Shown here one piece after another: positions 12,211 through 25,418 of a DNA stretch of 38,951 bases. Each line of letters starts with the position of its first letter. Within the stretch, counting starts at the first letter, position 1. The DNA lies in assembly GCA_027047855.1 (NCBI GenBank), contig JALTTZ010000005.1, positions 1 to 38,951 on the forward strand, given 5' to 3'. The translations under genes were made by a program, and so were the position numbers. This stretch comes from Nitrososphaeria archaeon (GTDB lineage Archaea > Thermoproteota > Nitrososphaeria > Geothermarchaeales > JDFR-13). The notes under the pieces are model-generated. The model saw only the letters and a list, made by a program, of their open reading frames with translations. It had not been told where the DNA came from and did not search any database.

Positions 12211-13080
12211 ATGAGATCAAAGCTTCTCTCACTAGATGAAGTCTTCGAAGAATTCCTAACGGATGGAATGGATGTAGCCTTAGGCGGGGCATTAACATAT
12301 AATACACCTTCGGTGATAGCCAGGGAAATTATAAATAGAGACATAGGCGGACTAACTCTATATTCATTCATGGGCACATACCCAGTAGATTTATTAGCAG
12401 GCGCAGGTAAGTTAAGCAAAGTAATGGCTCCATTCATTACATTCGCTGAGATGGGGTTAGCCCCTTCATTTCGAAGGAAAGTAGAAGAGGGCTCATTAGA
12501 AGTGGTTGAAATAGATGAAGTCTTCTGGGGCTTCGGATTGAAAGCGGGTGCAGCATCATTACCATTCATCCCGCTAGCACATGGCTATGATAATGATCTA
12601 CCGAGGGTAAATCCACTATACAAAAAGGTTACCAGTCCATACGATGGAAAAACATATATCACAATCCCACCCATAAAGCCGAGCCTGTCAATAATTCATG
12701 TTCAGTATGCAGATGAATATGGAAATGGGATACATTTAGGGAATGTCGCTACCGATATGATGCTTGCAAAGGCATCCCATAAAGTCATCTTGACATGTGA
12801 CAAACTCATAAGTCATGAGGAAATCCGGAAGAGGAATAAAGAAGTTAGCATACCAGGTTTTCTTGTAGAGGGAGTTATAGAAATAGATTTTGCATGCCAC
12901 CCTCTAGGAAGTGATGGACTATACGTGAGAGATGAAGAACACTTAAGAATGTATGCGAAGATGGCCAGGAGTGAAGATGGATTTAACGAATACTTAAAGA
13001 ACTATGTCCTCGGAAAGACGCATCGAGAGTATCTTGATAAAATTGGTCGAGAGAAGTTAGATAACCTCAGAATCGGGTGA
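12211..13080 (+). CDS. CoA-transferase/hydrolase family I alpha subunit (GctA/IpdA-like)
   Basis: DGMDVALGGALTYNTPSVIAREII, FAEMGLAPSFRR, HVQYADEYGNGIHLGNVATDMMLAKASHKVILTCDKLI, HPLGSDGLYVRDEEHLRMYA. Confidence 0.85.
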   Translation: MRSKLLSLDEVFEEFLTDGMDVALGGALTYNTPSVIAREIINRDIGGLTLYSFMGTYPVDLLAGAGKLSKVMAPFITFAEMGLAPSFRRKVEEGSLEVVEIDEVFWGFGLKAGAASLPFIPLAHGYDNDLPRVNPLYKKVTSPYDGKTYITIPPIKPSLSIIHVQYADEYGNGIHLGNVATDMMLAKASHKVILTCDKLISHEEIRKRNKEVSIPGFLVEGVIEIDFACHPLGSDGLYVRDEEHLRMYAKMARSEDGFNEYLKNYVLGKTHREYLDKIGREKLDNLRIG

Positions 13081-21972: not shown

Positions 21973-22084
21973 AACGTAAGTATTATACCTCTCTATCGAC
22001 ACAAGCCATTATAGAAAATATCTAAATATATATCTTTATAGTAAACCTTCAATTAATTTATTGTATCGCAGTGGTGACCTACCT

Positions 22085-24859
22085 ATGCAGACTAATGAGA
22101 AAATAGTAGAATATATCGAGACCCACCATGGGAAATATAAGATATATAGTTTACCGAAACTCGAGGAACTCGGATACACAAAACTCGATAGACTGCCCTA
22201 TACCATAAGAATATTCCTCGAGAACATAGCGAGAAATATCGATGGATATAGTATAAAAGAAGAGGATTTAAAAAACGTTGGTGACTGGATAAATAAGCGA
22301 GGGAAAGTCACGATTCCCTACAAACCATACCGAGTAGTTATGCAAGACTACACCGGCGTACCGCTGGTTGTTGACCTAGCGGCAATGAGAGATCTAGCCA
22401 ATAAATTTGGGGTAGACCCAAAGATCGTCGATGCGAAGATACGTGGAGATTTAATCATAGACCATAGCATACGGGTCGATTACTATGGAGTATCTTACGC
22501 AGTGTATAGAAACATGGATTTAGAGTTCAAGAGATTCAGGGAGAGATATAGACTGCTGAAGTGGGCTCAAAATGCGTTTAAGAACCTCAGGATAATACCA
22601 CCAGGTAAGGGTATTATACATCAGGTGAATATCGAGTATCTAGCAAAGGTAGTGGTAGATAAGAAGATTGATGGAGAGTACGTCGCTTTCCCTGATACCC
22701 TGATAGGAACAGACAGCCACACAACCATGGTTAATGGTATTGGTGTATTAGGTTGGGGAGTTGGGGGTATTGAGGCTGAGGCTGTATTACTCGGCGAACC
22801 ATACTATATAACATTGCCAGATGTGATAGGTGTAAAGTTAATTGGAGAACCCAAGGAAGGAGTAACATCTACAGACATCGTTTTAGCTCTCACCGAGTTC
22901 TTGAGGAAGAAGGCAGGTATAGACACAGTTGGTAAACTAGTGGAGTATTATGGACCAGGCCTCAAATATCTAAGCGGATTCGACAGGGTAACTATTGCGA
23001 ATATGGCCCCTGAATATGGCGCAACTACAGGTTTCTTCCCCGTAGACCAAATAACCCTAGACTACCTTAGAATAACCGGAAGAGACGAAGCAACAATCGA
23101 ACTAGTAGAGAAATATTGCAAAACACAACACCTATTTTATGATGAGGATAATGAACCGGAATACACATACAAACTTACATTCGACCTAAGTACAGTCGAA
23201 CCCGGTATAGCTGGACCTTCCAATCCGGAGGATAGAATTCCTCTTAGTAACATAAAGAAAAGGGCTACACAACTGATACATGAATTTATGGGCCTACCAA
23301 CGCATACTGCTGTTGAAGGCAGAGACAGAGCAGAAGAAGAATTTGTTCATGGACACGAAGTTAGTGGGCACCACGAATACCCAAAAATTGAGATAGACTT
23401 AGATGGAGTAAAAGGAGTATTGACACATGGCTCAGTCATAATAGCAGCAATCACAAGCTGCACAAATACATCAAATCCATATTTATTGATTGGTGCAGGA
23501 TTATTAGCCAAGAGAGCAGTCGAATATGGTTTAAGGGTGAAGCCTTTGGTTAAAACCAGCCTAGCTCCAGGTAGCCGTGCTGTAACCGAATACCTAAAAC
23601 GATCGGGTCTCACGCCATATTTAGAAGCACTGGGCTTCCATATCGTCGGATATGGATGTACTACTTGCATAGGAAATAGCGGTCCACTCCACCCTAAGGT
23701 CGAGAAAGCCATAAGAAGTTATAACCTATACGCTGTTAGCGTATTAAGTGGTAATAGAAACTTCTCAGGCAGGATACATCCATTATCCAGGGGTAACTTC
23801 CTAGCATCCCCCTTAATGGTTGTTGCATATGCAATCAAAGGAACAATAGATTGGGATCCATATAACGAACCTATAGGATACACCCCAACAGGAGAACCAG
23901 TATTCCTAAAAGATATATGGCCTTCAATAGAGGAAATAAATGAGTACGTAAGCAAGTTTGTTAGTTCGGATACATACAGAAAAATATACAGCAACATATT
24001 TGAGGGGACCGAAGAGTGGAAGAAACTTGAGGCGCCCACCGGCTTATTATACAAATGGGACGAGAGATCCACATTCATAAGAAGTCCACCATTCTTCGAG
24101 GGATTTGATCTAGATATACCAAAACCAAAGGACATTAAGGGAGCGAGGGTCCTGCTACTTTTAGGAGACAGAGTAACCACTGACCACATAAGCCCGGCAG
24201 GAGTCATCCAAGAGAATACACCCGCAGCAAAATACCTATCGAAGCTGGGAGTAAAACCCCAGGAATATCTAACATACGGAAGTAGGAGAGGAAACCACGA
24301 AGTTATGATGCGTGGAACCTTCGCCAATCCTAGAATAAAGAACCTCCTAGTCGATAGAGAAGGTGGATACACAATATACTGGCCAGAGAATAAGGTAACC
24401 ACCGTCTTCGACGCAGCTATGAAATATATGGAAGAAAATATAGACACAATAGTAATTGCGGGCAGAGCATATGGAACAGGAAGTAGCAGAGACTGGGCGG
24501 CTAAAGGACCGTACCTATTAGGGGTAAAGGCAGTGATAGCCAAGAGTTTCGAAAGAATACACCGAAGCAACCTAATAGGCATGGGTATATTACCTCTACA
24601 ATTCAAAGAGGGTGAAGACGCCCAGACACTAGGTCTCAAAGGCGACGAAATATATGACATAATCGGAATAGAGGAAGGTCTATATCCAGGAAAGACACTA
24701 AAGGTAATAGCACACAGACCAGATGGAACAACAATAAAATTCGAAGTGATAGCTAGACTGGACAATGAAGTAGAGGTAGACTATTATCTTAACGGCGGAA
24801 TCCTACGATACGTAATGAGAAAATTAATAAAACAAGCTAAGACAAACCCTAACAATTAA
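22085..24859 (+). CDS. acnA: Aconitate hydratase (AcnA type)
   Basis: VIAAITSCTNTSNPYLLIGAGLLAKRAVEYGL, GYGCTTCIGNSGPL, LLGDRVTTDHISPAG, AGRAYGTGSSRDWAAKGP. ATG at 22085. Confidence 0.95.
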   Translation: MQTNEKIVEYIETHHGKYKIYSLPKLEELGYTKLDRLPYTIRIFLENIARNIDGYSIKEEDLKNVGDWINKRGKVTIPYKPYRVVMQDYTGVPLVVDLAAMRDLANKFGVDPKIVDAKIRGDLIIDHSIRVDYYGVSYAVYRNMDLEFKRFRERYRLLKWAQNAFKNLRIIPPGKGIIHQVNIEYLAKVVVDKKIDGEYVAFPDTLIGTDSHTTMVNGIGVLGWGVGGIEAEAVLLGEPYYITLPDVIGVKLIGEPKEGVTSTDIVLALTEFLRKKAGIDTVGKLVEYYGPGLKYLSGFDRVTIANMAPEYGATTGFFPVDQITLDYLRITGRDEATIELVEKYCKTQHLFYDEDNEPEYTYKLTFDLSTVEPGIAGPSNPEDRIPLSNIKKRATQLIHEFMGLPTHTAVEGRDRAEEEFVHGHEVSGHHEYPKIEIDLDGVKGVLTHGSVIIAAITSCTNTSNPYLLIGAGLLAKRAVEYGLRVKPLVKTSLAPGSRAVTEYLKRSGLTPYLEALGFHIVGYGCTTCIGNSGPLHPKVEKAIRSYNLYAVSVLSGNRNFSGRIHPLSRGNFLASPLMVVAYAIKGTIDWDPYNEPIGYTPTGEPVFLKDIWPSIEEINEYVSKFVSSDTYRKIYSNIFEGTEEWKKLEAPTGLLYKWDERSTFIRSPPFFEGFDLDIPKPKDIKGARVLLLLGDRVTTDHISPAGVIQENTPAAKYLSKLGVKPQEYLTYGSRRGNHEVMMRGTFANPRIKNLLVDREGGYTIYWPENKVTTVFDAAMKYMEENIDTIVIAGRAYGTGSSRDWAAKGPYLLGVKAVIAKSFERIHRSNLIGMGILPLQFKEGEDAQTLGLKGDEIYDIIGIEEGLYPGKTLKVIAHRPDGTTIKFEVIARLDNEVEVDYYLNGGILRYVMRKLIKQAKTNPNN

Positions 24860-24887
24860 AAACACTTTATATTATTCAAACATATTA

Positions 24888-24948
24888 TAGGGGATGATTA
24901 TTCCTTTAAGTGCTGAAGCATGATGAATGACACCAAAGATGACCCTAA
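24888..24948 (+). ncRNA. C/D-box sRNA (2'-O-methylation guide)
   Basis: C ATGATTA (24894-24900), 12 nt, D' CTGA (24913-24916), AGC, C' ATGATGA (24920-24926), 12 nt, D ATGA (24939-24942); flanking GGG/CCC terminal stem. D' guide is complementary to the conserved 16S segment ACUUAAAGGAAU. Confidence 0.75.
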
Positions 24949-25004: not shown

Positions 25005-25418
25005 TTACTCAGAAAAAGACGCCTCAACAGCCTCGTAGAAAACTCTCGATATGTCTCTAGAGGAGACTATGCCAACCAACTTACCTTCATCATCCACGAT
25101 AGGTATATGCCTGAAACCCCTCTCACTCATAATCAAAGCGGCCTTACTCAAAGGATCATCCGGTTTCAAGGAAACTGGATCCCTCGTCATCACATCTCCA
25201 ATGGCAGTATATACTGGTTTATCCTCAGCCACCATTTTCATAAGATCACGCTCAGTAAAAATGCCCACTAATTTGTCATTCTCGACGATAAGTATACTAC
25301 CCACGTTCTTCTTAACCATCTGCTTAACTGCTTCCTTAACCGTGGTATCAGGCGTTGTATAAACTAACCTTCCCTTAGGTACCATAACTTCCTTTATCTT
25401 CTTCCCTATATAGCTCAT
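25005..25418 (-). CDS. CBS-domain pair protein
   Basis: TTPDTTVKEAVKQMVKKNVGSILIVENDKLVGIFTERDLMK and DPLSKAALIMSERGFRHIPIVDDEGKLVGIVSSRDI. Confidence 0.93.
   Translation of the reverse strand: MSYIGKKIKEVMVPKGRLVYTTPDTTVKEAVKQMVKKNVGSILIVENDKLVGIFTERDLMKMVAEDKPVYTAIGDVMTRDPVSLKPDDPLSKAALIMSERGFRHIPIVDDEGKLVGIVSSRDISRVFYEAVEASFSE

Follow-up and report, generated by a model that had tools for sequence, protein, structure and literature searches.

A predicted double-guide C/D-box sRNA gene of a Nitrososphaeria archaeon, with evidence for a compensated change in its kink-turn

The window, that is, the whole stretch of DNA that was analysed (38,951 nt), can be read at positions 24888-24947 as an archaeal double-guide C/D-box sRNA gene encoding an RNA of about 56-60 nt. 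Judged from its sequence and those of its relatives, this is a genuine C/D-box sRNA gene, of a well-known kind, of an uncultured archaeon, and the RNA very probably directs methylation at two sites in the core of the host's own 16S rRNA. The two odd letters in boxes C and D appear to represent a swapped base pair that was swapped again in matching ways in related RNAs, a view that is supported by the comparisons described below. Three points are moderately interesting: this covarying kink-turn pair, two paralogs that have one target in common and differ in the other, and an empty site in congeneric genomes.

Architecture of the sRNA and its locus

From 5' to 3', the RNA consists of a stem arm, box C (AUGAUUA), a 12-nt guide, box D' (CUGA), 3 nt, box C' (AUGAUGA), a second 12-nt guide, box D (AUGA) and the other stem arm (Table 1). 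The segment 24886-24950 (UAUAGGGGAUGAUUAUUCCUUUAAGUGCUGAAGCAUGAUGAAUGACACCAAAGAUGACCCUAACA) is parsed into UAGGG, the bulge GAU, the G.A, A.G, U.U and U6-A1 positions of the kink-turn, a 12-nt guide, CUGA, AGC, AUGAUGA, another 12-nt guide, AUGA and CCCUA; the positions of the bulge, the sheared pairs and the stem match the register of a kink-turn exactly. The kink-turn elements that are present include G-A/A-G, U.U, a Watson-Crick 6-1 pair and stem I; box C has one mismatch to RUGAUGA and box D one to CUGA. The internal C'/D' motif (CUGA-AGC-AUGAUGA) is flanked by spacers that are both 12 nt long, complementarity to the 16S rRNA of relatives lies directly 5' of D' and D (11 bp for U912 and 10 bp for G514), and the genes for L7Ae and fibrillarin are found in the source genome. 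In its size, four boxes, 12-nt spacers and kink-turn geometry, as well as in its double rRNA guides and 16S-core targets, the RNA resembles the archaeal C/D-box guide sRNAs (sR families; L7Ae-Nop5-fibrillarin). All motifs quoted in the earlier note, which was made from the letters of the window, are present, and its identification of a C/D-box sRNA agrees with the architecture, the limits of conservation and the two rRNA guides. The flanking GGG and CCC of that note do form a pairing stem, but one of 5 bp rather than 3.

Table 1. Features of the sRNA gene and its surroundings (window coordinates)
Feature	Positions	Strand	Remarks
Aconitase gene acn, upstream	22061..24859	+	Neighbours kept in G001 and G002
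TATA-box-like TTTATATT, possible promoter (weak)	24866..24873	+	About 24 nt 5' of the RNA; putative
Terminal stem (stem I), 5' arm UAGGG	24888..24892	+	Pairs with 24943-24947; in 21 relatives GG-CC invariant, third pair covaries CG/GC/UA/AU
Box C AUGAUUA, position 6 = U	24894..24900	+	Read from sequence; covaries with box D position 1
D' guide UUCCUUUAAGUG	24901..24912	+	11 Watson-Crick pairs to 16S 909-919 of G003, G005, G007; predicted target U912
Box D' CUGA	24913..24916	+	Read from sequence
Box C' AUGAUGA	24920..24926	+	Read from sequence; C'6-D'1 pair covaries
D guide AUGACACCAAAG	24927..24938	+	10 Watson-Crick pairs to 16S 511-520 of G003, G005; predicted target G514
Box D AUGA, position 1 = A	24939..24942	+	Read from sequence; partner is box C position 6
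Terminal stem, 3' arm CCCUA	24943..24947	+	Pairs with 24888-24892
CBS-domain protein gene, downstream, convergent	25005..25418	-	83-90% identical in G001, G002

On the strand of acn and some 30 nt beyond its stop codon, the sRNA occupies part of a 145-nt gap between the convergent acn and CBS genes, which confirms the location given originally. An element resembling the TATA-like sequence of Table 1 occurs at about the same distance in one relative only (L002).

A scan for C/D architecture covered 0.985 Mb of the source genome; strict criteria gave 6 hits only and were then relaxed, with four shuffled genomes as controls. The window sRNA obtained the top score (21.9), and nothing in the four shuffled genomes scored 18 or higher. 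Rfam yielded 0 matches at the gathering score in the window. The fold energy of the sRNA is unremarkable (z -0.95), as is to be expected for a C/D sRNA.

Predicted targets in 16S rRNA

Because the source MAG contains no 16S or 23S rRNA genes (nor do the genomes G001, G002 and G006), the guides were tested against rRNAs of relatives (the 16S and 23S of G003, G005 and G007, all from the same family). The D' guide forms 11 bp with AACUUAAAGGAA in the 16S of all three, and the N+5 rule points to U912, the very target that had been proposed from the window alone. The D guide, for which the earlier note could offer no placement, forms 10 bp with GUUUGGUGUCAG in G003 and G005, and its predicted target is G514. 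E. coli numbers are assigned from the sites of the standard primers 515F, 907 and 958. For a random genomic 12-mer, the probability of an 11-nt rRNA match is 0.0017 and that of a 10-nt match 0.0086, and the two window guides reach these lengths. U912 lies in helix 27 and G514 in helix 18, both parts of the 16S core.

The distribution of the guides was assessed by searching 400 genomes for the guide combined with the C and D box patterns. The U912 guide was recovered in nine of the 11 genomes of the family, f1 (two copies in the source genome; none in G003 and G006), and in two genomes of another family, f6 (G017 and G040), with the reversed control pattern matching once in the 400 genomes. The 912 target is present in the own 16S of G005, G007, G017 and G040. 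In genus g3, the U912 guide occupies the D position of another sRNA, with canonical AUGAUGA/CUGA boxes. G006 and seven f7 genomes retain the G514 guide, which in the latter pairs across 8-9 bp only. Judged on the 16S of G003, G005 and G007, the G006 guide (CUGACACCAAUA) fits the form present in G007 (GAUUGGUGUCAG) and the window guide that of G003 and G005 (GUUUGG), which suggests a possible guide-target co-variation between the window and G006 RNAs. For L004, L025 and L033/L034, no convincing target of the D' guide was detected. Matches to the G514 pattern in families f4, f10 and f11 were dropped, being devoid of C/D architecture on inspection, as were matches to the U912 pattern in G259 and G106. 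The assemblies of two relatives start or stop within the 16S gene, near position 920 (L016-L021; G003:C6 and G005:C1).

With high confidence, we regard the window RNA as a putative functional C/D-box sRNA of about 56-60 nt that would guide 2'-O-methylation of 16S U912 and G514. L7Ae would bind two sites, the kink-turn of the terminal C/D motif and the k-loop of the internal C'/D' motif, Nop5 and fibrillarin would assemble on these, and the D' and D guides would position U912 and G514, respectively, so that the N+5 rule makes them the sites of 2'-O-methylation. U6-A1 takes the place of the usual G6-C1 (4b-4n) pair in the terminal kink-turn and preserves the stem. The sequences show the architecture, the conservation, the pairing with its covariation, the guide complementarity and the L7Ae and fibrillarin genes; we infer that the window sRNA is transcribed, assembles into an RNP and directs methylation.

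Could the RNA act mainly as a chaperone of rRNA folding, with the guides holding 16S 909-919 and 511-520 together during assembly and methylation being secondary? The segment 909-919 includes a central pseudoknot strand and 511-520 is the base of helix 18. Both targets are in the central core, which has the densest predicted archaeal guide sites (PMC4644070), and a role of this type has been proposed for double guides (PMC7994747). Nevertheless, the boxes have exactly the geometry and spacing that methylation calls for, and the partner guides vary by lineage (514, 962 and others) while U912 is constant. We consider such a main role rather unlikely; chaperone action does not exclude methylation and is compatible with it as a second role of the RNA. 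Dennis et al. 2015 (PMC4644070) predicted C/D sRNAs for helices 18 and 27 of 16S in seven archaea, the same rRNA regions as here.

Covariation of the box C6-box D1 pair

The earlier note held that the change of G to U at position 6 of box C and of C to A at position 1 of box D is compensatory. Covariation of these positions in 21 related RNAs, aligned on the basis of a guide shared with the family of the window RNA, supports this claim: all 21 have a Watson-Crick pair, of three types (UA in 12, CG in 5 and GC in 4). Shuffling gave on average 56% paired and reached the observed value in 0 of 500 trials, and slid partners gave at most 81%, shuffle statistics that are inflated by the relatedness of the sequences; the three pair types in recognisable relatives are evidence independent of them. 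Furthermore, the covariance model R1 contained the 6-1 pair and its matches lean to pairing, so the statistic was repeated with RNAs whose detection did not rely on this pair, with Watson-Crick pairs in 20 of 20.

The C'6-D'1 pair covaries likewise. In families f5 and f7, the RNAs L028-L031 and L035-L037 carry two guides, one to 16S G514 and one to A535, both sites being inside helix 18. These orthologs share both guides, yet the pair is G-C in f5 and U-A in f7, in C/D and in C'/D' alike. A535 corresponds to the hot-spot site A512 of Dennis et al. 2015 (PMC4644070). The next pair (5.2) is U.U, A-U, U-A, C-G, G-C or G.U across relatives. An exception to the rule is L131 (G000:C35), with a U6.C1 mismatch, which was left out of the 21-row set; its related partner L042 (G001:C68) has a paired A6-U1.

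In archaeal C/D kink-turns, 4b:4n is strongly conserved as G:C and 3b:3n as U:U (PMC5689011). The terminal kink-turn of the window RNA differs from this norm in having U-A at 4b:4n, as do those of sister genera in having C-G. The genus g3 relatives, with C-G at 3b:3n, resemble the kink-turns of U4 snRNA, Kt-15 type, which have a Watson-Crick pair at 3b:3n and for the folding of which metal ions alone are not sufficient (McPhee 2014, PMC4382518); unlike these, the window RNA retains U.U at this position, and only 4b:4n departs from the C/D norm. The g3 RNAs in question (L025, L033 and L034), sRNAs with a G962 guide, have the box C AUGACCG and the box D GGGA, with C-G at both 3b:3n and 4b:4n.

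These swaps provide a natural test that selection on the contact between box C6 and box D1 acts on the pairing and not on the letters themselves, and they favour pairing rules over consensus words in searches for C/D sRNAs. At 6-1, SnoReport 2.0 requires no more than Watson-Crick pairing (PMC7994747), so that the pairing rule itself is already known; the new part is the series of natural 6-1 swaps.

Paralogs and the empty site

When a 101-nt query was compared with 61 genomes by BLASTN, matches were confined to 24890-24945 and came from G001, G002, G006 and a second site in the source genome (contig C36). In these four further copies, the matches stop at the limits of the RNA, which is conserved whereas its flanks are not. 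The C36 paralog (L005, G000:C36:3091-3151) has the same box variants and U912 guide as the window copy, and the D guide of the paralogs (UGACUCCAAU) forms 10-11 bp with 16S AAUUGGAGUCAA, which would target G962. This paralog is located between AOR and htrA, as is the G002 copy; the G001 copy adjoins htrA, with the contig starting 163 nt upstream.

In G001 and G002, two genomes of the same genus (the MAGs are about 75% complete), the acn/CBS gene order is kept, with 83-90% protein identity, and the sRNA is missing from the site: the gaps are about 54 and 26 nt long, compared to 145 nt in the window. We infer that the window copy was inserted in the source lineage or else was lost from both G001 and G002. 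According to a 2021 review (PMC7994747), mobile features in the C/D genes of archaea await discovery, and the window sRNA is a case of guide reshuffling combined with an occupied versus empty genomic site. A more general scenario, possible but less likely than not, is that in this archaeal class sRNA genes duplicate, relocate and exchange guide halves, and C/D kink-turns have drifted from the conserved G:C closing pair via repeated compensatory swaps. On this view, the window copy would have been relocated, or assembled as a chimera, in recent times, its U912 half coming from the paralog and its G514 half resembling that of genus g5.

Alternatively, the window copy might be a redundant, recently inserted duplicate of little function, considering that the C36 paralog, which shares its box variants and U912 guide, would already guide U912 and that no sRNA occupies the acn/CBS gap of G001 and G002. 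We deem this improbable: every box and both guides are intact in the window copy, its C'/D' boxes are nearer to the consensus than those of the paralog, and its D guide is directed at another site, G514, shared with L004, an RNA of another genus. The proximity to acn (same strand, some 30 nt past the stop codon) and the ability of L7Ae to regulate mRNAs via kink-turns (PMC5539422) could suggest instead an L7Ae-bound regulatory element at the 3' end of the aconitase mRNA, with no guide RNA involved; this is very improbable, since the homologs adjoin unrelated genes (AOR/htrA and others), two acn orthologs have no sRNA, and the two rRNA guides would be left unexplained. Finally, short and degenerate as C/D boxes are, chance resemblance within AT-rich intergenic DNA has a negligible probability and is refuted by the conservation, covariation, guide matches, scan score and random 12-mer P values.

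The source genome contains a third sRNA with AUGAUUA/AUGA boxes (U6-A1), L164 (G000:C68, about 12564-12620), which has an ortholog, L041, in G006, and the D' guide of which forms 10 bp with 16S GGCAGGUCAGUA.
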